This document shows positions 1,521 to 60,573 of a DNA stretch of 64,000 bases, in pieces. The stretch covers positions 372,001 to 436,000 of the forward strand of contig NZ_QVNU01000005.1 in NCBI RefSeq assembly GCF_003545715.1. Reading direction: 5' to 3'. Source of the stretch: Taibaiella koreensis (lineage in GTDB: Bacteria > Bacteroidota > Bacteroidia > Chitinophagales > Chitinophagaceae). A model generated the notes under the pieces. That model saw nothing but the letters and a program-made list of their open reading frames with translations. It ran no database searches and had not been told where the DNA came from. Position 1 is the stretch's first letter, and every line of letters starts with the position of its first letter. A program made the translations under genes and the position numbers.

Positions 1521-1925
1521 TTAAGCCGTAGCAGGATGTTCCATTTTTTCAGCGTCCAGCCACAACCCCTCCAGATCGTAAAATTTACGTTCGTCCCGCT
1601 GAAAAACGTGCACTACAATATTGACGTAGTCGACCAGGGTCCACAACTGCCCCGATTCCATATGATAAGGCTTTTCCTCGCAGGCCTTCCTTACTTCCTC
1701 CTCTACGTTAGCAGCGATCGCATTGATCTGTATATGCGACTGCGCCTCGCACAAAATAAAAAAATCTGCCACCGCTTCATCGATCTTCCTGAGATCCAAT
1801 GAAACGATCTGCTCCCCTTTTTTATCCTGGATGGCTTTAATGATGGTTTTGAATAATCTGCTGTTGCGGTTAAGGCGTATATCAGACTTGATACGGTTTT
1901 TCAGTGAACTGATGATTTTCTCCAA
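1521..1925 (-). CDS. rsfS: Ribosomal silencing factor RsfS
   Basis: 134-residue RsfS/Iojap-family protein, which binds ribosomal protein L14 (uL14) and blocks subunit joining when nutrients are low. The family core is visible as KKGEQIVSLDLRKIDEAVADFF near residues 35-57 and the later segments QINAIAANVEE and WTLVDYVNIVVHVF. The only possible start in this frame is TTG at 1923-1925, because an in-frame TAA lies two codons upstream and the next methionine is inside the conserved domain. It is divergent from birA across 57 bp and lies just upstream of ftsH on the same strand, 140 bp away. Family assignment is firm; the TTG start is inferred from the lack of an alternative. Confidence 0.93.
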   Translation of the reverse strand: MEKIISSLKNRIKSDIRLNRNSRLFKTIIKAIQDKKGEQIVSLDLRKIDEAVADFFILCEAQSHIQINAIAANVEEEVRKACEEKPYHMESGQLWTLVDYVNIVVHVFQRDERKFYDLEGLWLDAEKMEHPATA

Positions 1926-1982
1926 TGCTTAGTGCGAATATGCGTTATTGAATTATATTGCGTTCAAAATTAAGGAATCTTT

Positions 1983-2753
1983 TTGGCACAAAACGTAGAA
2001 AATACATTTCCCAAGTGGCTTCACTACTTTGATACTATAGATAGTACCAACAATTATGCCATGCAGCGTATCGACGACGGATTGGCACAGCAGGGTGAAG
2101 TGATATGGGCGGCGCACCAGTTGCAGGGTAAGGGGCAAAGGGGTAAAAAATGGGAAAATGACGAAGGAAATGTAATGATGAGCCTGATATTGAAGCCGGT
2201 AATCCCCACGGAGCGGCAGTTTATACTGAGCGCCGCCGTGGCCCTCACGATTGCTAAATATTTACAAACGCTTTCTGACCGGTGGCAGGTTGCCATAAAG
2301 TGGCCCAATGATATTTATCTGAATGACAAAAAGGCATGTGGCATCCTGATCGAAAATGTATTCCGGGGTATGCATTGGGCTTATTCGGTGGCAGGTATTG
2401 GCTTGAATGTCAACCAAACCGCCTTCCCGCCGGAGCTAACGCGGGCCACCTCGATGGCCATGGTTTCGGGCCGGCAGTTTGATCTTACCGAGATCATTAC
2501 CGATATCCGATCGGGCGTGCTCAACCTGTTGCAGCCGCTTGGCCCCGACCGCTACCCTGCCCTGCTGGCGGATTATAATAAGCTCCTTTTTCGGCGGGAC
2601 AAAGAAACACAGTTTGCCGAAAAGGCTACCGGCAGGGTATTCGAAGCCTTCGTACAGGAGGTAAATGTGGAAGGACAGCTCGTGCTGCTCACCCATAAAG
2701 GGATTGAAAAATACCAGTTCGGCGCGCTGGAGTGGCTATTATCACCTCAATAA
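1983..2753 (+). CDS. birA: Biotin--[acetyl-CoA-carboxylase] ligase (class I, no DNA-binding domain)
   Basis: 256-residue biotin protein ligase that adenylates biotin and attaches it to the carboxyl-carrier lysine of acetyl-CoA carboxylase. Motifs in order: IDSTN at 19-23, the biotinyl-AMP loop GKGQRGKKW at 49-57, KWPND at 106-110 and KKACGILIE at 116-124. There is no N-terminal helix-turn-helix, so it is the monofunctional type and not the E. coli repressor type. The start must be TTG at 1983: an in-frame TAA sits at 1971-1973, there is no ATG or GTG between, and the next Met follows the IDSTN motif. A purine-rich TAAGGA (1971-1976) sits six bases upstream. The 3' end overlaps the convergent gene by 7 bp. 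Confidence 0.94.
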   Translation: MAQNVENTFPKWLHYFDTIDSTNNYAMQRIDDGLAQQGEVIWAAHQLQGKGQRGKKWENDEGNVMMSLILKPVIPTERQFILSAAVALTIAKYLQTLSDRWQVAIKWPNDIYLNDKKACGILIENVFRGMHWAYSVAGIGLNVNQTAFPPELTRATSMAMVSGRQFDLTEIITDIRSGVLNLLQPLGPDRYPALLADYNKLLFRRDKETQFAEKATGRVFEAFVQEVNVEGQLVLLTHKGIEKYQFGALEWLLSPQ

Positions 2754-3631
2754 TCGCTGATCTGCTGCAATCCTTTATCTTTCAATTGCTGCAGCACATG
2801 CGCCGGCAGCTCTGGACTGCTCAGGGCCAGGTCCACCGATATTTTTTCAAACGCTTTGGCCGGCACACGGTCAAACAGCTCATTGAGGGCTACCGGGTCG
2901 CCATTGAAGCTGACGCAAGTGCTTACAAAGTTCATCTGGTCTATACTAAACCCATTTTGCTTCAGCTTGCTGGTGGCATCTTTTAGCCGGCCAATAAAAT
3001 GCCGCTGCCGGATGAAGGTGGTGCTGTTCATGATGATAAAGATATAATCGGCGTAGGCGGTGATCTTTCCATAGTACAGGTGATTGTCCTTACCGGAGCG
3101 TTCGACCAGGTACTCATCGCCCGATTTATAGATCTCCATGGCCGAGCGCCGTACCCGCTCTTCCTTGTGACCCGGTCCGCTCAGCGGTAGATTACTGTTG
3201 TAGCAATACCAATAGCCCACCAGGTGATCCAGCAGGTTCCTGTTGACGGTGCCCAGCGGAATATTGATCTTCAATTCGTGAAAGCTGAAGCTGGCTGCGG
3301 CATTGCTCAGAAAATCCATATAGCTGTCGTAACCCAGCAAGGCAGCGATCGTATTCATTTTGCCAAAATTGGGGCTGCTGATACCCTGCAATGCCTTCCC
3401 TGTACCGGCAGCCTTGAGCCGCTTGATGACGAGATGCTCGTAAAAATAATTATCGCCCAGGAAGGCGACCTCCTGCTGCAGGTGCTGATGCTTTTGCTGC
3501 AGCTTGTTGAATTCCGACGAGATATACAGCCACTCTGCTTTGGATACTTCTTCCCAGGCATTCTTGCGGATAAAATGATGTGCGATATAATTCATTAGCC
3601 GTTCCAGGTGGGCCAGCTCCTCTTTGCTCAT
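2747..3631 (-). CDS. Hypothetical protein, 294 aa
   Basis: Not recognised. A soluble-looking protein with no signal peptide or membrane segment. The N-terminal ~75 residues are mostly helical and charged (lysine, glutamine, glutamate). The middle carries an aromatic stretch around residues 140-165 (HLVGYWYCYN) and a beta-rich part. The last seven bases overlap the end of birA in convergent orientation. A good promoter candidate (TTG-N19-TATTTTCG) lies just upstream at 3647-3676, which supports it as a real, separately transcribed gene with ATG at 3629-3631. No catalytic motif is visible, so no function is proposed. Confidence 0.8.
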   Translation of the reverse strand: MSKEELAHLERLMNYIAHHFIRKNAWEEVSKAEWLYISSEFNKLQQKHQHLQQEVAFLGDNYFYEHLVIKRLKAAGTGKALQGISSPNFGKMNTIAALLGYDSYMDFLSNAAASFSFHELKINIPLGTVNRNLLDHLVGYWYCYNSNLPLSGPGHKEERVRRSAMEIYKSGDEYLVERSGKDNHLYYGKITAYADYIFIIMNSTTFIRQRHFIGRLKDATSKLKQNGFSIDQMNFVSTCVSFNGDPVALNELFDRVPAKAFEKISVDLALSSPELPAHVLQQLKDKGLQQISDY

Positions 3632-51312: not shown

Positions 51313-52542
51313 TTAAAAAGTATAAGAGATACCGATAGCAGGCAGCAGGCTCTTGATCTGGTAAGCACCCCTGAAATTGGCCGGATCGTAGGTTACATCT
51401 CTCCTCGGTGTGGTGGTATAATTCAGGGCCGCCATTATGCTAAGCCGAGGCAAGGGCTGATAGGTAGCGCCACAGGACAAGGTAAGCCTGTTGCCATCTA
51501 CCGCATCGGGCGACAGCAGGTTGTCGCGTGTGGGCGTAGGATCATAGGCGCCTCCGGCCATAATCGCAAACTGGTCGGCGATCTGATAATGCGCTCCCAA
51601 CCGGAAGGCAACCGTATTCTTATAAGAACGGGGATCGTGTGTATCCTGTACCGCTTTGTTTTCAGCAAAATCGAAGCTCAGAGAGTCGTAAGTCTTCCAG
51701 CCGGCAAACACGACGTCAGCCTGTACCATAAGGTCGCTGGTAAATTTATAACCCAATCCTACCGTCAGTATTTCGGGCAGCGGCAGTTTCGAATCAAAGG
51801 TGGTATTGGGAAAATTGCCGGCCAGCGATCCGGGTACGGTAAAGGTCGCGTCTCCTTCATTTACTTTCATATTTACCTTGGAGCGATAAGAGATGCCGAA
51901 CTGCAGGTCATCGGTCGCTTTGATCTGTACGCCCACATTGAAGCCGTAGCCATTGGCGCCGCCTTTCAGCTTGGCCTGCCCGTCGTTGCCGTTGATATCC
52001 TGTACTGGTACAGCCTTCGTAATATCGACTGTTCCCCGGGCATATACAAAACCGGCGCCTACAGAGATCATATCGTTGACCGCATAGCTTACCGTTGGCT
52101 GGAAAAAGAAACTTTGCAGACTGATCGACTCCACTACATACCGTCCGGTCCAGCTATTGCCCCAATCCAGCTTATTACCAAAAGGAGTGTAGATGCCCAG
52201 GCCTATGCCTATCTTGCTTCCTTTCTTTATAGGCCCGCCAACGTACACAGCAAAGGGAGTGGTCGTATGCGTCTCGGAACTGGCAGAATAACCGCCGGTA
52301 GGCGTTTGCACATACTTCACATTGGGAGTAACAATATTGACACTACCATAGGCCTGTATGCCATTTAGCCGCGACAGCCCACCGGGGTTAAAAAAGATAG
52401 TAGAGGCATCCCATGGCCAGGCCACACCGGTTCCGCCCATTGCGGTTTGCCGTATACCCTGCAGATTTAGTTGAAAGCTGCCGCCGAAAGCCATAGAAGA
52501 GGCCACCAGCGCAGTAGCGGTAAGCGTACAGATCTTTTTCAT
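51313..52542 (-). CDS. OmpP1/FadL-family long-chain fatty acid outer-membrane porin
   Basis: 409 residues with a signal peptide (ends ~20, SMAFGG). The FadL hatch/N-terminal motif appears as FQLNLQGIRQTAMGGTGVAWPWDASTIFFNPGGLSRL (21-57 in part), with the NPAG-like FNPGG. The rest is long amphipathic strands, ending in LLPAIGISYTF with a terminal Phe. It should bring fatty acids across the outer membrane. Placed between the SGNH lipase and the fadE gene on the same strand, with a hairpin before it. Confidence 0.92.
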   Translation of the reverse strand: MKKICTLTATALVASSMAFGGSFQLNLQGIRQTAMGGTGVAWPWDASTIFFNPGGLSRLNGIQAYGSVNIVTPNVKYVQTPTGGYSASSETHTTTPFAVYVGGPIKKGSKIGIGLGIYTPFGNKLDWGNSWTGRYVVESISLQSFFFQPTVSYAVNDMISVGAGFVYARGTVDITKAVPVQDINGNDGQAKLKGGANGYGFNVGVQIKATDDLQFGISYRSKVNMKVNEGDATFTVPGSLAGNFPNTTFDSKLPLPEILTVGLGYKFTSDLMVQADVVFAGWKTYDSLSFDFAENKAVQDTHDPRSYKNTVAFRLGAHYQIADQFAIMAGGAYDPTPTRDNLLSPDAVDGNRLTLSCGATYQPLPRLSIMAALNYTTTPRRDVTYDPANFRGAYQIKSLLPAIGISYTF

Positions 52543-52620
52543 TGTTGTTGTTTTGGGTTAGTAAAAATGGCTAAATGCATCATGCTTCTTGCCGGTAGCG
52601 GCGGCGCCTTGCCGGAAGAA

Positions 52621-52656
52621 TAGCAGGCAGGAAAGCCGTGGCCTTCCTGCCTGCTA
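52621..52656 (-). terminator. Hairpin after fadE
   Basis: Perfect 13-bp stem TAGCAGGCAGGAA / TTCCTGCCTGCTA, 6 bp beyond the fadE stop. It has no T-run on either side, so it may be a partial terminator or a 3' stabiliser between fadE and the FadL-type gene. Confidence 0.6.
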
Positions 52657-52661
52657 CTTAT

Positions 52662-54440
52662 TTAATAGCAATATTTATTGGCTTCGATCAGCTTCGCAGC
52701 AATACTCCTGCGTGCTTCGGTCGTATTCAATTCGTCGGTCTTGGTAAAACGTTTCAGTCCCATCATCATCATCCTGCGCTCATCTCCATCGGCAAATGCA
52801 TTGAGCGCATTGCGACCCGCGGTATGGATGCGTTGCGCAGCATCGAAAATATAGACCTTTGCCATGGCTATCTTTTCTTTTGCCGCTTCTTCACCGGCGC
52901 TACCTGCAAGCTTTTCTACACGCAACAGTACCGACTCGCTTACATAGAGCTCGATCAGCATATCGGCCAGGTACAGGATCACTTCCTGCTCCTTGCTCAG
53001 GCTTTGCATAAGCTTCTGTACCGCGGCGCCTGCAGTCATCAGGATCGCCTTTTTAAATCCGGAAATATAGCTATGCTCTTTGGCAAAAAGGCCTTCTTCC
53101 TGCGCCCCGAAGTCGGGAATGCTCATCAGCTCGCCTGCCACTTTCTGTGCAGGGCCCATCAGGTCGAGCTCGCCTTTCATGGCACGTTTCAGCATCATAT
53201 CCACACTGAGCATGCGGTTGATCTCGTTGGTTCCTTCGAAAATACGGTTGATGCGTGCATCGCGGTAGGCACGATCCATAGGCGCTTCGGCGCTATAGCC
53301 CATGCCACCATATATCTGCACGCCTTCATCGGTTACATAATCCAGCACCTCCGAGGCATGCACTTTGATGATGGCCGCTTCAATGGCAAATTGCTCGGTG
53401 CCCTTCAGCTTGGCCTGCGCGGCGTCCATACCACCGGCAATGTAAGCATTGGTCGCATCTTCGATATTCTGGCTGGCGCGATATACGGCAGCTTCCGAGG
53501 CATAGGTACGAATAGCTTGTTCGGCAAGCTTGTATTTGATCGCGCCATACTTGGCAATAGGACGTCCGAATTGCTCCCGCTCGCCGGCATAATTGACGGC
53601 TTTGCTGATCACCTCTTTGGAAGCGCCGAGCGCCGCGCCACCCAGTTTGATACGGCCCAGGTTCAGGATATTGACAGCGATCTTAAAACCGTTCTCCCGG
53701 GTCGACAACAGATTTTCGACCGGCACCTTGCAATCGTTGAAGAATACCTGGCGGGTAGAGCTGCCCTTAATACCCATTTTATGCTCTTCGGGGTTGAACG
53801 ATATACCTTCAAAGCTTTTTTCGACGATGAAGGCGCTCAGATTCTTATCGTCGTCAATCTTGGCAAACACCGTAAAGATATCGGCAAAGCCGCCATTGGT
53901 GATCCACATTTTCTGTCCGTTGAGGATATAATGCTTGCCGTCGGCAGAAAGCGTGGCTTTGGTTTTGCCGGAATTGGCATCCGATCCGGCTCCGGGTTCG
54001 GTAAGACAATAGCAGCCCTTCCATTCGCCAGTAGCCAGCTTGCTCACATACTTCTTCTTCTGCTCTTCGTTGCCATAATAAAGGATAGGCAAGGTTCCGA
54101 TACCCGTATGGGCCGAAAGCGCCACGGCAAAGGAATGTCCTGCGCCCAGCACCTCAGTAGTGAGCATGGACGTCACGAAGTCTTTTCCTACACCATTGTA
54201 TTCTTCGGGTACACTCATGCCCAGCAAGCCCAGCTCACCGGCTTTGTCGAGGAGAGAAGGCATAAGGCCCTCTTCCTGCTCGTCGATGCGGTTAAGATTG
54301 GGATCGACATTTTGTTTCAGAAAATCGCGGCACATTTCCGCAATCATACGTTGTTCTTCGTTCCAGTCTTCGGGAATGAAGATATCTCCGGCTTTCGTGT
54401 CTTTGATCAGAAATTCGCCGCCTTTGATTGCTGCGTTCAT
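52662..54440 (-). CDS. fadE: Acyl-CoA dehydrogenase (FadE-like)
   Basis: 592 residues, near the 594 of Bacillus subtilis FadE. FAD-dependent oxidation of acyl-CoA to trans-2-enoyl-CoA, the first step of beta-oxidation. Visible: CLTEPGAGSDANSGKTKA (substrate/FAD loop), MWITNGGFADIFTVFAK, GGMGYSAEAPMDRAYRDARINRIFEGTNEIN with the candidate catalytic Glu in YSAEAP and the C-terminal FEGTNEI. A ~150-residue C-terminal helical extension follows, as in very-long-chain acyl-CoA dehydrogenases. Last cistron of fadN-fadA-fadE; a heptamer array stands only 4 bp upstream of its ATG. Confidence 0.94.
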   Translation of the reverse strand: MNAAIKGGEFLIKDTKAGDIFIPEDWNEEQRMIAEMCRDFLKQNVDPNLNRIDEQEEGLMPSLLDKAGELGLLGMSVPEEYNGVGKDFVTSMLTTEVLGAGHSFAVALSAHTGIGTLPILYYGNEEQKKKYVSKLATGEWKGCYCLTEPGAGSDANSGKTKATLSADGKHYILNGQKMWITNGGFADIFTVFAKIDDDKNLSAFIVEKSFEGISFNPEEHKMGIKGSSTRQVFFNDCKVPVENLLSTRENGFKIAVNILNLGRIKLGGAALGASKEVISKAVNYAGEREQFGRPIAKYGAIKYKLAEQAIRTYASEAAVYRASQNIEDATNAYIAGGMDAAQAKLKGTEQFAIEAAIIKVHASEVLDYVTDEGVQIYGGMGYSAEAPMDRAYRDARINRIFEGTNEINRMLSVDMMLKRAMKGELDLMGPAQKVAGELMSIPDFGAQEEGLFAKEHSYISGFKKAILMTAGAAVQKLMQSLSKEQEVILYLADMLIELYVSESVLLRVEKLAGSAGEEAAKEKIAMAKVYIFDAAQRIHTAGRNALNAFADGDERRMMMMGLKRFTKTDELNTTEARRSIAAKLIEANKYCY

Positions 54441-54444
54441 ATTA

Positions 54445-54496
54445 GTATTGAGATTTGGGTATTGGGTATTGAGATGTTACGTTGCCAATACCCAAA
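54445..54496. repeat. Left heptamer array of element A, with a 12-bp inverted repeat
   Basis: Five 7-bp units in plus orientation from 54445 to 54479: GTATTGA, GATTTGG, GTATTGG, GTATTGA, GATGTTA. In addition, TTTGGGTATTGG (54454-54465) is repeated in inverse as CCAATACCCAAA (54485-54496). Confidence 0.85.
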
Positions 54497-54513
54497 AGGT
54501 TTTAAAAATTATT

Positions 54514-54867
54514 TTAAGTCAATAAGCTTTGCTGAAGTCGGTAATTCATCTTCTGCAGATCATCCAGACGATCCAATAAAAGTGCTGACCGCTCTGTATC
54601 CAGTAGTTCCAGTCTTTGGGCAATAATAATCTGAGTTTGGAGTTCGTACGAAGAACCATTGGCGATAGCCAGAAAATGCTTAAAATCTCCATTTGTATTT
54701 CTACCCGCCCCTTCTGCAATATTTGAAGGAACAGAAACAGCTGATCTCCTGATTTGAGAAGTTAATCCGTAGGTTTCCTCTTTAGGAAAGTAAGCAGTGG
54801 CACCATACACTTGTGTCGCAAGATCAATGGCCTTGTGCCATATCTTCAAATCGCTGAGCTTATGCAT
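54514..54867 (-). CDS. Four-helix-bundle S23/IVS-type protein (element A)
   Basis: 117 residues of the S23 (23S rRNA intervening sequence) / Avd-like family: [45 protein letters not shown] and [16 protein letters not shown]. Known members sit in 23S rRNA insertions or, as Avd, in diversity-generating retroelements, where they form pentameric RNA/RT-binding barrels. There is no rRNA or reverse transcriptase here. The gene lies between fadA and fadE on their strand and is flanked by oppositely oriented heptamer arrays. The paralogue at 56228-56590 shares the order and most of the first 90 residues. Confidence 0.9.
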
Positions 54868-54910
54868 ATTCTTACAATTTTAATTGCGAAAATTCACCTG
54901 ACGCTGGTAC

Positions 54911-54953
54911 TTATTACTTACTGCCTCAATACTCATTACTCACTACCCAATAC
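54911..54953. repeat. Right heptamer array of element A
   Basis: Units TTATTAC, TTACTGC, (one base), TCAATAC, TCATTAC, TCACTAC, CCAATAC on the plus strand, i.e. the reverse complement of the left array type. It lies between the S23 gene and the fadA stop. Confidence 0.82.
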
Positions 54954-54958
54954 TCAAG

Positions 54959-56137
54959 CTACATCATCTCAAATATCCCGGCGGCGCCCTGCCCGGTACC
55001 TACACACATGGTTACCATGCCATATTTCTTTTCGCGGCGCTTCAGCTCGTTCAATACTTGTACGGTAAGCTTGGCGCCGGTACAACCCAAAGGATGTCCC
55101 AGGGCAATAGCACCGCCATTAACATTAACGATCTCCGGATTCAGGCCCAGCTCCCTGATCACCGCCAGCGATTGCGAGGCAAATGCTTCGTTCAACTCGA
55201 TCAGGTCGATATCATCCTTCTTCATACCTGCTACCTTAAGGGCTTTAGGAATGGCTTCTATAGGACCGATACCCATGATGCGGGGCGGCACACCGGCGGA
55301 GGCATAGCTAACCATACGCGCTACCGGTGTGAGGTTATTTTCTTTCAGGAACTGCTCGCTGACCACCATCACAAAAGCCGCACCATCGCTGGTCTGCGAA
55401 GAATTGCCTGCGGTCACGCTGCCACCTGCGGCAAACACGGGCTTCAGCTTCGCCAGCGCTTCTGTTGAAGTATCGGCGCGCGGGCCTTCGTCGGTATCGA
55501 CCACGTACTCCCGGGTCTTTTTCTTACCGCAATTGGCGCCCACATAGGTTTCCTGTATAGTCACCGGCACGATCTGGTCTTTGAACTTCCCTTCGGCCAA
55601 TGCCTTCAGGGCCTTTTGATGAGAATGCAAGGCAAATTGATCCTGGTCTTCACGGCTTACTTTATATTCTTTGGCCACCTGTTCGGCAGTCAGGCCCATA
55701 TTCCAGTAATAATCGGGATGTGCCAGGGCTGTATCGGCATCGGGTACCACCCGCCATCCCCCCATGGGAATAAGGCTCATGCTTTCGGAACCGCCGGCAA
55801 TAATACAATGTGCCAACCCACTATGGATCTTGGCTGCAGCGATAGCGATCGTTTCGAGTCCCGAGGCGCAGTAGCGGTTCACAGTCACGGCCGATACTTT
55901 GTCGGTATCGAAGCTCATGAGGGATACAAAACGGGCGAAGTTGAGCCCTTGCTCCGCTTCCGGCATGGCATTGCCTACGATAAGGTCGTCGACCTGTTCG
56001 GCTCTCACCTGCGGTACCGAGGCCATCAGGTGTTTGATCACGTCAGCAGCCAGTACATCGGGGCGGGTGAAACGGAAGCCTCCGCGGGGCGCTTTGCCCA
56101 CGGCTGTCCTGAAGCCGGTTACGATATATGCGTTCAT
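54959..56137 (-). CDS. fadA: Acetyl-CoA C-acyltransferase (thiolase)
   Basis: 392 residues, like B. subtilis FadA (391). Thiolytic cleavage of 3-oxoacyl-CoA, the last step of beta-oxidation. Nucleophile Cys90 in [27 protein letters not shown] with the His, and the second Cys in [10 protein letters not shown] near the C-terminus are all present. Middle cistron of the set, between two S23 elements. Its ATG (56135-56137) stands 8 bp from a TTAGAYR heptamer array. Confidence 0.96.
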
Positions 56138-56145
56138 TTGATTTT

Positions 56146-56187
56146 TTAGATGTTAGATGTTAGACATTAGATATTAGACATTGGGAT
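56146..56187. repeat. Left heptamer array of element B
   Basis: Six contiguous 7-bp units in plus orientation: TTAGATG, TTAGATG, TTAGACA, TTAGATA, TTAGACA, TTGGGAT. Confidence 0.85.
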
Positions 56188-56227
56188 CGTATTGTCCTGT
56201 CTCCTTCCGTCTTTTCTTTTTACGATG

Positions 56228-56590
56228 TTATAGCGTTCTGTTCTTGATATTTTCCTTGAAGGCATAAGTCATTTTTAGCAGTTCATTGATATTGTGTGTC
56301 AGATATTCAGATTGCTCGGCGTTGATCAGATGTAACTTCTCTGAAATAATAACCTGCGTTTGCAGCTCATAAGCCGATCCGGTCGCTATACCGAGAAAGT
56401 GTATGAATTCTTTATTTGAATTTCGACCGGCGCCTTCCGCGATATTAGAGGGAATAGAAGCAGATGACCGCCTTATCTGAGCAGTAAGCCCATAAGTCTC
56501 TGTTGGCGGGAAATGGGCCGTCGCCTTATACACATCTACGCATATGTCGATAGCCTTGTTCCAGATTTTCATATCCCCGAGTTTATGCAT
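56228..56590 (-). CDS. Four-helix-bundle S23/IVS-type protein (element B)
   Basis: 120 residues, same family and layout as the element A protein: [61 protein letters not shown]. The two differ mostly after residue ~90. It lies between fadN and fadA on their strand, again within inverted heptamer arrays, here of the TTAGAYR type instead of GTATTRR. Function unknown; by family it may bind structured RNA. Confidence 0.9.
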   Translation of the reverse strand: MHKLGDMKIWNKAIDICVDVYKATAHFPPTETYGLTAQIRRSSASIPSNIAEGAGRNSNKEFIHFLGIATGSAYELQTQVIISEKLHLINAEQSEYLTHNINELLKMTYAFKENIKNRTL

Positions 56591-56650
56591 AACATTTTGT
56601 TTTAAAAAGATGAATACCGTTTATACAGGCACATCAAAAGGTTATGGTTT

Positions 56651-56706
56651 TATCTGGTATCTAATGTCTAGCATCTAATATCTAACGTCTGATAACTAAT
56701 TTCTAA
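56651..56706. repeat. Right heptamer array of element B, running into the fadN 3' end
   Basis: Eight contiguous units on the plus strand (TATCTGG, TATCTAA, TGTCTAG, CATCTAA, TATCTAA, CGTCTGA, TAACTAA, TTTCTAA), the reverse complement of the left array. The array covers the fadN stop codon (56696-56698), and the last codons of fadN (Leu-Arg-Asn) are encoded by array units. Confidence 0.85.
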
Positions 56707-59074
56707 GTACTTTTCCGCCGTTCAGAATAGACTGTATCCTTTCCAGGGTTTTCTTTTCGGTCGTCAGGCTCAGGAAGGCTTCGCGCTCCAGGTCGAGCAG
56801 GTATTGCTCGCTCACCTCAGTGGGCTGGGAAAGGTCCCCGCCGGCCAGCACATAGCCCAGCTTCTGCGATATCTTTACATCGTGCTCGCTGATATAATTG
56901 CCGGTAAACATGGAGTTGGCGCCCAGGTAAGCCAGGCCCAGCGCCTGCTTGCCCAGCACTTTAATATCCTTGCGGTGTGCAGGCTGCACATAGCCGGCGT
57001 TAGCCATTTCCAGGCATTCGGCCTTGGCCTCGGCCAGCAACCGGTTGCGTGAGATCACTACCTTATCCAGGCCTCTACGCAGGTAGCCCAATTCAAAGGC
57101 TTCTTCTGCCGAGGTCGATACCTTGGCCTGACCTATGGTAAGGAAACGGTCGCGATAGGTATTGAGCGCTACATCGCCTTCATGCAGAGAATCGGAGAGC
57201 CGTACAGCAAACTCCTTGGAGCCACCCCCGCCCGGTATCAGTCCTACACCAAACTCCACCAGGCCGATATAGGCTTCGGCATGCGCCACTACCTTATCGG
57301 CATGCAGGCACATTTCACAGCCGCCGCCTAATGCCATATTGTGCGGAGCCACTACTACGGGTATAGCAGAATAGCGGACACGCATCATGGTATTCTGAAA
57401 CTGGCGTATAGCAAAGTCCAGCTCATCGTATTCCTGCTCTACAGCCATCATGAAGATCATGCCCACATTGGCGCCGGCGCTGAAATTGCCGCCTTCGTTG
57501 GAGATCACCAGGCCTTTGTATTCTTTCTCAGCCAGGTCTATCGCCTTGTTGATACCTTCCAGCACCTCACCGCCGATACTGTTCATCTTGGTATGGAATT
57601 CCAGGTTCAGGATACCATCGCCGATGTCGGTGATTGTAGTGCCGCTGTTCTTCCATACCGTCTTGCTTTCGCGTATGTTCTCCAGCAATATAAATTCTTC
57701 GGTGCCCGGAATGACTTGGTATGATTTTGTAGGAATATCGTAATACAGGCGATGGCCATTCTCTATCTTGTAGAACGTAGTGTTTCCTGCCGACAGCATA
57801 TCGTATACCCACTGTGCAGGCTTATTGCCGGCCTCTTCCATTGCTTTTATGGTAGCTTCAACGCCCAGTGCATCCCAGGTATCGAAGGGTCCGAGCTCCC
57901 AGCCGTAACCGGCCTTAATAGCATCGTCGATCTTGTACAGCTCGTCGGAGATCTCGGGTATACGGTGGCTGGAATAAGCAAAAAGCGGGAACAGTGTGGC
58001 GCGGTAAAAATCACCGGCCTTATCTTTTGCGGCGATGAGCATGCGCAACCGCTGCCGCAGGTCGTCGACAGGTTTGGTGGCTTCCAGCACGGCAAACTTC
58101 ACTTTCTGGGAAGGTTTATATTCCAGGGTCTTCAGATCCAGTGCATGGATCTCGCTTTTGCCACCCTCCCCTCTTACTTTTTTAAAGAAACCTTGCTCGG
58201 TCTTGCTACCCAGCCATTTGTTCTCAATCATTTTGTTGACGAAGGCCGGTACTTTCAGCATCCCTTTTGCTTCGTCATCCGGTACATTTTCTACCAGGCT
58301 GTTGGCTACCAGGGCCAGCGTGTCGATTCCCACCACATCGGCGGTACGGAAGGTGGCCGATTTGGGACGGCCCACTACGGGCCCCGTTAGCTTGTCTACC
58401 TCTTCAACGGTCATCCCGGTCTTTTCCACATATTGCAACAGGCTCATCATGCTGAAGACCCCGATACGGTTGCCAATGAACGCTGGCGTATCCTTGGCCT
58501 GCACGGTCGTCTTACCGAGGAATTTTTCACCGTAATGCATCAGGAAACTGATCACTTCCTTATTCGTGTCGGTAGTGGGAATGATCTCGAGCAGCCTGAG
58601 ATAACGCGGCGGATTAAAGAAGTGCGTTCCACAAAAGTGCTTCCTGAAATCTTCGCTGCGGCCTTCGGCCATCAGGTGTATCGGAATACCGGAAGTATTG
58701 GAAGTAATGAGCGAGCCCGGCTTGCGGTACTGCTCTACATTGGCAAACACCTTCTTTTTGATGTCGAGCCTTTCGATCACCACCTCGATCACCCAATCGC
58801 AGTCCTTAATGCGGGGCAGATCGTCGTCCAGGTTACCGGTGCTTATTCTTTTCGCAAAGGATTTGCTATAGATGGGCGAAGGGTTGGATTTAAGGGCGAA
58901 GGCCAGCGCATCGTTCACGATCTTGTTGCGGGCCTTGCCATCGCCTTCGGGCGCATCTTTGGGTACAATGTCCAGCAGCAATACCTCCAGTCCTATATTG
59001 GCGAAATGGCAGGCAATACGACTGCCCATTACCCCGGACCCCAGCACGGCTACTTTTTTAATGATCCGATTCAT
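56696..59074 (-). CDS. fadN: 3-hydroxyacyl-CoA dehydrogenase / enoyl-CoA hydratase (FadN type)
   Basis: 792 residues, close to B. subtilis FadN (789). The order is dehydrogenase first and hydratase last: Rossmann GSGVMGSRIACHFA (12-25), 3-hydroxyacyl-CoA dehydrogenase parts to ~400 (HFFNPPRYLRLLEI, GNRIGVFSM), then an enoyl-CoA hydratase/isomerase fold with GGNFSAGANV and ALGGGCEM (oxyanion/CoA loops). It carries out the two middle steps of beta-oxidation. The stop codon falls inside a heptamer array, so the original C-terminus may have been changed slightly. First cistron after the TetR gene. Confidence 0.95.
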   Translation of the reverse strand: MNRIIKKVAVLGSGVMGSRIACHFANIGLEVLLLDIVPKDAPEGDGKARNKIVNDALAFALKSNPSPIYSKSFAKRISTGNLDDDLPRIKDCDWVIEVVIERLDIKKKVFANVEQYRKPGSLITSNTSGIPIHLMAEGRSEDFRKHFCGTHFFNPPRYLRLLEIIPTTDTNKEVISFLMHYGEKFLGKTTVQAKDTPAFIGNRIGVFSMMSLLQYVEKTGMTVEEVDKLTGPVVGRPKSATFRTADVVGIDTLALVANSLVENVPDDEAKGMLKVPAFVNKMIENKWLGSKTEQGFFKKVRGEGGKSEIHALDLKTLEYKPSQKVKFAVLEATKPVDDLRQRLRMLIAAKDKAGDFYRATLFPLFAYSSHRIPEISDELYKIDDAIKAGYGWELGPFDTWDALGVEATIKAMEEAGNKPAQWVYDMLSAGNTTFYKIENGHRLYYDIPTKSYQVIPGTEEFILLENIRESKTVWKNSGTTITDIGDGILNLEFHTKMNSIGGEVLEGINKAIDLAEKEYKGLVISNEGGNFSAGANVGMIFMMAVEQEYDELDFAIRQFQNTMMRVRYSAIPVVVAPHNMALGGGCEMCLHADKVVAHAEAYIGLVEFGVGLIPGGGGSKEFAVRLSDSLHEGDVALNTYRDRFLTIGQAKVSTSAEEAFELGYLRRGLDKVVISRNRLLAEAKAECLEMANAGYVQPAHRKDIKVLGKQALGLAYLGANSMFTGNYISEHDVKISQKLGYVLAGGDLSQPTEVSEQYLLDLEREAFLSLTTEKKTLERIQSILNGGKVLRN

Positions 59075-59085
59075 TTGAGATTTAA

Positions 59086-59183
59086 GTATTAAGAGTCAGG
59101 TATTAAGTATTAAGTATTAGGTATTAAGTATTGGGTATTGGGTATTGAGTATTGGGTATTGAGTATTAAGTATTGGGTATTGG
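59086..59183. repeat. Fourteen-unit GTATTRR heptamer array (left arm of empty element C)
   Basis: Exactly 98 bp of contiguous 7-bp units in plus orientation, 11 bp upstream of the fadN ATG. Thirteen units are GTATTAA, GTATTAG, GTATTGG or GTATTGA; the second unit is GAGTCAG. Confidence 0.9.
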
Positions 59184-59194
59184 AATTTAGAATT

Positions 59195-59236
59195 TGGATA
59201 CATAGTACTTGAGACCTGATACATAGTACTTGATAC
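59195..59236. repeat. Six-unit inverted heptamer array (right arm of empty element C)
   Basis: Contiguous units TGGATAC, ATAGTAC, TTGAGAC, CTGATAC, ATAGTAC, TTGATAC (42 bp), reading GTATCAA/GTACTAT on the minus strand, opposite to the neighbour array 11 bp away. It also contains a 16-bp direct repeat (59197-59212 and 59218-59233). Confidence 0.8.
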
Positions 59237-59244
59237 CCGCTCCA

Positions 59245-59805
59245 TCACACACTGATCGCCTGCCATACTGCTTCGTGGAACTTTTGCTTGGCGCCTTTCT
59301 TATTCAGATCGGTCTTGTGCGCCAGGTGCAGCTTAATGATCGTATTCATGGGTCCATGGATCAGAGCTAACAAAATGGCATCGGGAATGTTCCGGATCAC
59401 ACCTTGCTTTTTTCCCTCCCGCATCATCTTATAAATGGGCAGGAGCAGGGTAAAATTTTCATCCTGGTTTTCTTTGAATAAAAAAGGGGCATAGGTGTAT
59501 TGCTCAATAAAACTGAAATTGTCCGGCTCAGCCAGATAGAAGTCTATCGCCAGATCGATCATATTGAAGAAATTGGCCTTTACCGGCTTGCCATCGTCGT
59601 AGCCCTCGAGCACATTCTGGTTAAACTCATTCACGATCATGCCATACAATGCATTGATCAGGTCTTCCTTTCCTTTAAAGTACAGGTAAATGGTTCCGGC
59701 TGCTACGCCGGCTTCCTGCGCAATCTTTTTCATGTTCAGGTGATAGAATCCTTCACGGTTGACCAGCTTCAATACACTTTTGAGAATGGCCTGCTTTTTG
59801 TCCAT
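59245..59805 (-). CDS. TetR/AcrR-family regulator, probable fatty-acid repressor
   Basis: 186 residues. The N-terminal helix-turn-helix reads KKIAQEAGVAAGTIYLYFKGKEDLINALY (26-54 in part), the standard TetR form; the C-terminal half is a helical ligand/dimer domain. It is the first gene of the strand leading into fadN-fadA-fadE, in the same place as FadR-type TetR regulators that leave DNA when bound to long-chain acyl-CoA. A palindrome AATGAACGTTCATT lies 24 bp upstream of the ATG and would give autoregulation. Ligand is inferred from context only. Confidence 0.9.
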   Translation of the reverse strand: MDKKQAILKSVLKLVNREGFYHLNMKKIAQEAGVAAGTIYLYFKGKEDLINALYGMIVNEFNQNVLEGYDDGKPVKANFFNMIDLAIDFYLAEPDNFSFIEQYTYAPFLFKENQDENFTLLLPIYKMMREGKKQGVIRNIPDAILLALIHGPMNTIIKLHLAHKTDLNKKGAKQKFHEAVWQAISV

Positions 59806-59827
59806 ACAACAATATTAAGCAAAAAAA

Positions 59828-59846
59828 TGAATGAACGTTCATTTTT
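59828..59846. promoter_or_regulatory. Probable TetR/FadR-type operator
   Basis: Perfect 14-bp palindrome AATGAACGTTCATT (59830-59843), extended to TGAATGAACGTTCATTTT, similar to TGAATGA-type operators of FadR TetR repressors. It sits upstream of the TetR start codon. Confidence 0.6.
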
Positions 59847-59953
59847 GAAAAAAAAGAGTAAGCTGGTACTCACCGGCCCTTAACCGGTCGCTAACCAAGG
59901 CCGCGGCCCTGTTTTCAGCAACCGTTAATGTGCAAAACTTCTTAACGTTTCAT

Positions 59954-59984
59954 TTGATTTTTATGGCGACTATAAATACTTTCG
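59954..59984 (+). promoter_or_regulatory. Promoter of the 184-aa membrane protein
   Basis: TTG (59954-59956), 20-bp spacer and TACTTTCG (59977-59984), one mismatch from TAnnTTTG; 34 bp before ATG 60019. Confidence 0.5.
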
Positions 59985-60018
59985 CCACTGTAACCCTTCA
60001 TCTTTTATACGCATTGTC

Positions 60019-60573
60019 ATGAAACCGCTCAATTTGCAGGAAGACCTGATCCGGGATTTCCAGGAACAGAAAAAGACCGTTAAGGAACAGGTGGCGCTCA
60101 TTGATCCCATGGCCACATCGCTGCGCAAGCCGGCCGCCAAACGCCTGTTCCATACCGGCATCATCGTCTTCATGGAGATCCTTTGCTGGCTGCTCGTATT
60201 GGGCTGCATCGCCTTCGTGCTCTTTGCCGATAAGCTTTATCCTTTTTATTACCTCAGCCAGCTGCAACACGATACTGCATTGGGCGAACGCTATAAGCCG
60301 GAAGACCTGAAGGCGCTGCACTGGATGGTGAGGGGAGCCGGCCTGGTCCTCGCGCTGCTCCTGCTCATAGTCGCCCGCATGCTGGCGGCCATCCGCCTCA
60401 AGAACAGCATCCTGCACATTGCCGGGAAAAATATGAAGCAACTGGTGGAGCAGCTGCTGAAACGGAAGGCAGCCATGGAGAATATGGAGCAGAAGTATCC
60501 TTCCGAGTTACCTCAGAACGACGATGCCGTCGTGATCCAGGTACAGAAACCGCACAATGATATTCTCCTTTAA
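60019..60573 (+). CDS. Two-segment membrane protein, 184 aa
   Basis: A cytoplasmic-looking N-terminus (1-43, charged) is followed by a membrane segment at ~47-69, a loop of ~40 residues, and a second segment at ~104-122, then a helical tail with basic and acidic patches (MEQKYPSELPQNDDAV). The sequence is not recognised. It stands alone upstream of the PNP gene, with 101 bp between. Confidence 0.7.
   Translation: MKPLNLQEDLIRDFQEQKKTVKEQVALIDPMATSLRKPAAKRLFHTGIIVFMEILCWLLVLGCIAFVLFADKLYPFYYLSQLQHDTALGERYKPEDLKALHWMVRGAGLVLALLLLIVARMLAAIRLKNSILHIAGKNMKQLVEQLLKRKAAMENMEQKYPSELPQNDDAVVIQVQKPHNDILL

Follow-up and report, generated by a model that had tools for sequence, protein, structure and literature searches.

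Why do small genes of the S23 family stand, together with arrays of 7-bp repeats, between the genes of a fad operon? The question arises from a 64-kb window of the 5.94-Mb genome of Taibaiella koreensis (the whole stretch of DNA analyzed here, G000:C19:372001-436000), in which the minus strand encodes, in this order, tetR, fadN, fadA, and fadE, identified by their Pfam domains. A repeat search and a lag-7 self-match scan confirmed that each of the three junctions, tetR/fadN, fadN/fadA, and fadA/fadE, contains a pair of 7-bp arrays in opposite orientations, as had been proposed from the letters of the window alone in the original prediction. Two of the pairs enclose genes for S23 four-helix proteins, as was claimed there (S23a and S23b, open reading frames (ORFs) of 117 and 120 amino acids (aa), respectively, both belonging to PF05635 and TIGR02436), and the left arrays at all three junctions lie at the claimed distance of 4-11 bp from the ATG of a fad gene (Table 1). 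The third pair, with an inverted match score of 35, indeed encloses no gene; the spacing between its arms is 13 bp and not the 11 bp originally given.

S23 proteins are widespread and of unknown function, and the heptamer repeats of cyanobacteria lack an agreed role. The data presented here tie the two together: S23 gene and arrays probably belong together in a widespread family of small elements of the mobile type, with binding of the protein to the array as a putative function. Within the window, the lag-7 scan returned three segments with a score of at least 13, one per junction, so that three of the six window arrays pass this threshold; no segment reached that score at lags 5, 6, 8-11, or 13.

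Inverted arrays at the flanks of S23 genes

The window genome carries six PF05635 genes, at least one S23 gene is present in 80 of 99 relatives, and S23 genes occur in other phyla as well. The sample of relatives was drawn from the matches listed and favors high-scoring S23 genes; neighboring genes were called as the longest ORFs, and some of their strands may be wrong. The 119 S23 hits in 115 loci were reduced to 100 genes by removal of fragments shorter than 95 aa and duplicate proteins, and to 97 by dropping genes with less than 150 bp of flank. For each gene, the 250-bp upstream flank was compared by local alignment with the reverse complement of the downstream flank. The inverted match scored at least 24 in 74 of the 97 genes, compared to 13 of 194 swapped partners and 15/97 in the direct orientation; at a score of at least 28, the respective numbers were 62/97, 5/194, and 8/97. 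For 71 of the 97 genes, the inverted match both passed and exceeded the direct one. Among control ORFs of 90-175 aa from S23-carrying genomes, 8/175 reached 24 and 0/175 reached 28. The flanks are self-similar with a 7-bp period: self-match at lags 7, 14, and 21 was 0.345, 0.338, and 0.324 upstream and 0.345, 0.325, and 0.309 downstream, against about 0.26-0.29 at other lags. Intergenic controls showed a weaker lag-7 peak (0.317), and thus, arrays occur without S23, too. When S23 flanks were scored genome-wide, as the original prediction had proposed, all six S23 genes of the window genome turned out to be flanked by inverted matches (scores of 28, 46, 28, 35, 30, and 28), although only three have clear heptamers: the strict lag-7 array threshold was passed at 3/6 genes, and in the remaining three, the heptamers are imperfect and were recognized by eye.

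The association extends beyond the immediate relatives. In a scan of named genomes, which retained the 80 best among 579 relatives of one window S23 (76 with flanks of 120 bp or more, upstream as well as downstream), a score of 24 was passed by 37/53 genes from Bacteroidota (swapped, 9/106; direct, 8/53) and by 16/23 genes from other phyla (swapped, 1/46; direct, 7/23), with the proviso that a phylum label may be wrong because many of the records are metagenome bins. S23 was also found in 38 plasmid records, many of them cyanobacterial. Ten of these records, from cyanobacterial plasmids, were analyzed, and seven S23 genes pass (swapped, 10/90), with lag-7 self-match of 0.43 and 0.40; one of those passing (L382) has a direct match that exceeds the inverted one. 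Three of the plasmid S23 genes (L382, L384, and L386) are located within CRISPR operons, at cas6/cas4 in two records and between cas10 and a cmr3-family gene in the third.

In sampled stretches, six S23-carrying genomes yielded 30 lag-7 arrays over 1160 kb (5/6 genomes with arrays) and five S23-free genomes none over 760 kb (0/5), whereas arrays with lags of 5, 6, and 8-11 totaled 15 and 13, respectively. Inverted heptamer pairs lacking S23 numbered 17 in the S23-carrying and 0 in the S23-free genomes. In 16 of the 17, the loop is shorter than 80 bp and thus has no room for S23; the 366-bp loop of the 17th holds another ORF. One genome (G023, L368-L372) contains 15 arrays in 100 kb, many of them near-perfect hairpins flanked by ORFs that converge or run in the same direction; only four S23 genes were found in it.

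Repeat word, S23 lineage, and the history of the junctions

The repeat word was compared between 127 elements with an inverted score of at least 24, using BLAST alignments that cover at least 80 residues. For elements at different junctions, pairs with more similar S23 proteins have upstream arms that match more often, from 0.6% at 30-40%, 1.3% at 40-50%, and 4.4% at 50-60% identity to 32% at 60-70% (n = 41) and 67% above that (n = 6); it is near zero when arms are compared in the opposite sense. The word matches in 16 of the 45 different-genome pairs at different junctions with S23 at least 60% identical, and in 21/3343 pairs at different junctions below 40% identity. S23 pairs from the same genome that are less than 60% identical never share the word (0/70). 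Permutation of the arms confirmed that arm similarity follows S23 identity at different junctions (observed value of 19.7; permutation mean of 11.0 with standard deviation of 0.62; reached in 0/2000). Arms within an element match far better than arms from different elements. Within the window, the long downstream array of the gene-less tetR/fadN pair resembles the S23a arms (scores of 43 and 47), not the S23b arms (17 and 15).

One pair of Flavobacteriales loci illustrates a possible change of place. In L190, the S23 gene lies between fadN and fadA; in L221, a gene for an 86% identical S23 precedes fadN. The fadN/fadA junction of L221 contains an S23-less array pair with the same word (score 33), and the gap before fadN in L190 contains no array pair (score 13). 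L190 and L203 were also considered as a case of different junctions, but the alignment puts both S23 genes after fadN, which leaves L190/L221 as the sole case used. On the L203 contig, from Flavobacterium, fadN and S23 are separated by a further 208-codon frame between inverted arrays (positions 1850-3000, score 54), which suggests that elements are stacked there. At the junction of L008, L043, L098, and L097, the S23 proteins are 73-83% identical, and the word shifts in L097, in both arms together. The tendency of the word to follow the protein between places hints at a mobile element of a little-known kind and provides a testable rule, namely that the protein lineage predicts the repeat word and that both arms match.

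Orthologous junctions differ in content among relatives. Fourteen of the 30 fadA loci have fadN upstream, and four of these have S23 in between (the window genome, G001, G069, and G077). In G033 and G065, both fad junctions are short and contain no arrays, and the tetR/fadN gap of G033 is 24 nt. An S23 profile search of the six S23 junctions of the window genome in three congeners (G001, G002, and G003) detected S23 at one of the 18 sites, fadN/fadA of G001, where the protein is only 58% identical; the remaining junctions are empty or contain gene-less arrays or other cargo. The nrdB/nrdA junction is unfilled in G001 (gap of 53 bp) and G002 (44 bp), and S23-less array pairs occur in G001 at fadA/fadE (score 34) and in G002 at accB/accC (score 42; 8-bp units by eye). 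Two further apparent array pairs, at nrdB/nrdA of G003 and fadN/fadA of G002, were by-eye impressions that scored just 15 and 17 and were rejected. Presence and absence at orthologous sites, a general criterion for mobile elements, was thus observed, and the empty sites sought by the original prediction exist, at both fad junctions of G033 and, without S23 or arrays, at nrdB/nrdA of G001 and G002. That prediction had named two outcomes that would speak against mobility, namely the same arrays and S23 genes at the same place in all relatives and a lack of inverted heptamer flanks at most S23 genes of the genome; given that empty sites exist and the flanks of all six S23 genes are inverted, neither was clearly found.

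Among 166 S23 genes, a sample enriched for fad S23 and partly drawn with a fad S23 query, fadN/fadA holds 25 and fadA/fadE 8. A single vertical origin of the fadN/fadA genes was rejected, as the 25 do not form one clade (p-AU 1.3e-6). The state of this junction changed 14 times on a quick tree and 18 times on the FastTree tree, compared to a shuffled mean of 23.5. Not one clade, and with fewer changes than shuffled, these genes point to repeated arrival plus some inheritance.

Across closely related species, operon junctions are filled with differing small cargo genes. GxxExxY genes (PF13366, PDDEXK_3) occupy fadA/fadE and nuoF/nuoG in G002 and G003. In a GxxExxY sample (L117, L119, and L146-L175), inverted arms pass 24 in 16/30 genes, compared to 9/90 swapped and 8/30 direct; self-match in the flanks peaks weakly at lag 9 but not at lag 7. 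GxxExxY might possibly represent a parallel element family at the same junctions as S23. An ORF6N gene (PF10543, L335:961-1497) fills, in G003, a junction that holds S23 in the window genome.

Such cargo is what would be expected if slippage or fold-back repair generated the arrays on the spot and these then served as landing sites for S23 and other small genes. The existence of array-only pairs fits this explanation, and so do L098 and L097, where a 74% identical S23 stays in place and the arms are of a different word. Nevertheless, we consider an origin in place unlikely: arrays were not found in the sampled S23-free genomes, the word tracks S23 identity across different junctions, and the two arms of an element match each other far better than they match arms of other elements.

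Element anatomy and alternative roles at the RNA level

The elements share a common order: the stop codon of the upstream gene, a G-rich heptamer array, S23 or nothing, a C-rich array that repeats the word in inverted orientation, and the start codon of the downstream gene. In 55 elements with close codirectional neighbors, the median distance is 4 nt from the stop codon to the upstream arm and 14 nt from the downstream arm to the ATG; the median array length, taken from 42 arrays on each side, is 4.6 units. The upstream arm contains more G than C in 114 of the 127 S23 elements, with eight reversed and five tied. All 17 array-only pairs are G-rich inward, one of them by a single G. Five of these pairs lie between convergent ORFs (in one, the neighboring ORF is 2.4 kb away) and share the polarity, so that its origin from G-poor start regions is not favored; polarity seems to be inherent in the element rather than an effect of nearby start codons.

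The original prediction interpreted the loci as intervening sequence (IVS)-like elements confined to mRNA between cistrons, with the arms forming a stem that is cut by RNase III, so that the S23 segment is released and the flanking cistrons are spared. The resemblance is considerable. Terminal inverted repeats are present, the S23 family is common to IVSs and these elements, and the IVS of Coxiella, in the accessible part of its description, has a 28-bp bordering stem, is cut by RNase III, and is associated with S23 (PMC4990558). Fold z-scores are -3.3 for fadN/fadA, -2.1 for fadA/fadE, and -2.9 for tetR/fadN, and in the RNA folds of lowest energy, the two arms pair with each other at fadN/fadA and at tetR/fadN but not in element a (fadA/fadE). 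An RNA stem that maintains complementarity would be expected to favor G-U pairs on the sense strand, but arm mismatches show no such bias (100 sense-type and 104 antisense-type wobbles among 465), and selection for an RNA stem was accordingly rejected: the stem can form, yet carries no mark of selection in the wobble test. Of the 90 elements with both neighbors within 700 bp, 76 have both in the S23 sense and 4 both against it (76/80 of those with codirectional neighbors); ordinary genes yield a similar count (149 and 16), so that this bias proves little and was dismissed as proof of insertion at the RNA level. Three 23S motifs, run with no positive control, were found at 0/195 S23 loci. With five array-only pairs between convergent ORFs as well, release from mRNA appears improbable as the function of these elements. 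The claim of S23 elements at operon junctions withstood analysis; a mechanism based on a stem and on excision of RNA gained no support, given the lack of wobble bias, and confinement to intercistronic mRNA proved too narrow in view of the occurrence in other phyla, the convergent array-only pairs, and a word that tracks S23.

We regard as very improbable that the arrays are regulatory intercistronic hairpins, involved in transcript stability or translational coupling, with S23 as an mRNA-binding regulator of the host operon: the flush placement between stop and start, the regulatory role proposed for cyanobacterial repeats in the accessible part of one account (PMC2670836), and the repeated occurrence of S23 at fadN/fadA (25/166, in a sample partly from a fad S23 query) are in its favor, but S23 is patchy among congeners (1/18 junctions), the fadN/fadA genes are not one clade, the host operons are functionally diverse (fad by Pfam; nrd, nuo, and acc by visual inspection of the sequence), and some array-only pairs lie between convergent ORFs.

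Proposed mechanism and related systems

Under the favored explanation, a family of small mobile-type elements in which S23 and array belong together, S23 would assemble as a ring, as suggested by the solved homologues (PDB 2gsc and 2rld), which have five chains per entry. The ring would bind tandem heptamers, perhaps one heptamer per subunit. TRAP is an RNA-binding ring protein that reads phased triplets, and the S23 ring would, by analogy only, read phased tandem RNA motifs. Each S23 lineage would read its own word, so that gene and arms would move and evolve as one unit, and hairpins of a given word that lack the gene might be non-autonomous copies, helped in trans by S23. The element would lodge between cistrons and be expressed together with the operon; its flush fit between stop and start would keep the damage small.

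A more far-reaching version, which we put forward tentatively and consider somewhat doubtful, is that S23 is the founder of a new class of mobile elements across phyla, with no known transposase or reverse transcriptase, in which a pentameric ring, reading a tandem heptamer specific to its lineage, spreads its own gene and gene-less hairpins across operon junctions. The inward G-rich ends would fit an addition of heptamers at the two 3' ends of a break; short tandemly repeated repetitive (STRR) sequences would then be footprints, the rRNA IVS a special landing site, and GxxExxY, with arms of a different period, a parallel system.

Several observations weigh against the mobile-element reading. 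Pfam and NCBIfam scans of S23 detected no transposase or nuclease, only S23/Avd-type domains, and the reverse transcriptase RVT_1 (PF00078) has 0 matches in the window genome; dependence on a reverse transcriptase was rejected on this ground (RVT_1 is present in 14/59 relatives). Near-identical S23 copies within one genome are absent from the sample, the best pair being about 70% identical, so that no recent jump was caught. No target-site duplication was recognized by eye at the congener junctions, the flanks of which have diverged. The compared arm pairs share ancestry, which was not removed from the arm statistics. Inverted flanks are not universal: 23/97 S23 genes have no clear inverted match, and in 4/97, a passing direct match is better than the inverted one. 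The short upstream arm at tetR/fadN matches neither S23 word (scores of 10 and 12), and the nrdB/nrdA arrays of G003 show no clear pairing. Among the sampled S23-carrying genomes, G031, with 16 S23 genes, has no array in 160 kb, and G023 alone supplies 15 of the 30 lag-7 arrays.

Several known systems resemble these elements in part. REP/BIME systems (repetitive extragenic palindromes and bacterial interspersed mosaic elements) with their RAYT (REP-associated tyrosine transposase) proteins comprise a gene between inverted short repeats along with dispersed gene-less copies, and the word is matched to the protein lineage. The repeat-flanked gene, the gene-less copies, and the word-protein match recur here, whereas the HUH (Y1) transposase domain is absent from S23 in the Pfam and NCBIfam scans. 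Diversity-generating retroelements (DGRs) employ the accessory protein Avd, a distant homologue of S23; the NCBIfam profile DivGenRetAVD gave weak matches, far below the cut-off (E 8e-4 for S23a and 1e-4 for S23b), and, unlike DGRs, the window genome lacks a PF00078 reverse transcriptase. The 23S rRNA IVS shares the S23/IVP ORF (PF05635), terminal inverted repeats, and a position within a transcribed unit, but the window elements lie between fad genes and not inside an rRNA gene, and their arms are 7-bp tandem arrays of an element-specific word.

Heptamer repeats have been described previously. STRR sequences are 7-bp repeat hairpins between cyanobacterial genes with no agreed role according to the accessible part of the account (PMC2670836), and TAACTGA arrays near start codons occur in Beggiatoaceae, cyanobacteria, and Bacteroidetes (MacGregor 2015, accessible part; PMC4679880). 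Like the arrays analyzed here, both consist of intergenic 7-bp tandem units, in hairpins or in arrays near starts; the accessible parts of both accounts, in contrast, mention no S23 gene, inverted pairing around a gene, or link between word and protein, and the term S23 is missing from the main text of PMC4679880. A further report, in its accessible part, places a four helix bundle gene within a supposed phage region, where it is flanked by guanylate kinase and nadD-type genes (PMC5524665). No literature linking S23 genes to heptamer arrays was recognized in a search that fell short of most subscription papers. The role of S23 and the spread of intervening sequences thereby become approachable, by binding assay and comparative survey.

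Table 1. Coordinates of the fad operon genes, S23 genes, and heptamer arrays (positions in the window)
Feature	Coordinates	Strand	Evidence or remark
tetR, upstream gene of the operon	59245..59805	(-)	Pfam TetR_N 5.8e-13
Array-only pair, upstream arm, 21-bp units	59197..59244	(-)	Tandem repeat; inverted match to other arm
Array-only pair, downstream heptamer array	59082..59183	(-)	7 bp from fadN ATG
fadN, 3-hydroxyacyl-CoA dehydrogenase/enoyl-CoA hydratase	56696..59074	(-)	Pfam
Element b, upstream G-rich arm, word TTAGAT(A/G)	56653..56706	(-)	Overlaps fadN end; repeat search
S23b gene, four helix bundle protein, operon sense	56228..56590	(-)	PF05635 2.2e-38; TIGR02436
Element b, downstream arm, C-rich in sense	56146..56182	(-)	8 bp from fadA ATG; inverted score 46
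fadA, thiolase	54959..56137	(-)	Pfam
Element a, upstream arm, word GAGTATT/GGGTAGT	54925..54957	(-)	Repeat search, lag-7 scan
S23a gene, four helix bundle protein, operon sense	54514..54867	(-)	PF05635 1.1e-38; TIGR02436
Element a, downstream arm	54445..54473	(-)	4 bp from fadE ATG; inverted score 28
fadE, acyl-CoA dehydrogenase	52662..54440	(-)	Pfam

No Rfam match reached the gathering score in positions 52500-60200 of the window, and a known RNA family was rejected for the locus, the single microRNA (miRNA) match being at chance level and below that score. PADLOC-DB assigned 0 defence families to the S23a and S23b proteins. In two loci (L091 and L109), the contig ends soon after the S23 gene; arrays may break assemblies, and hence S23 counts in drafts may be too low. 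Several S23 genes (L032/L064 and others) contain internal stops, and gene decay inside the elements seems to be common.

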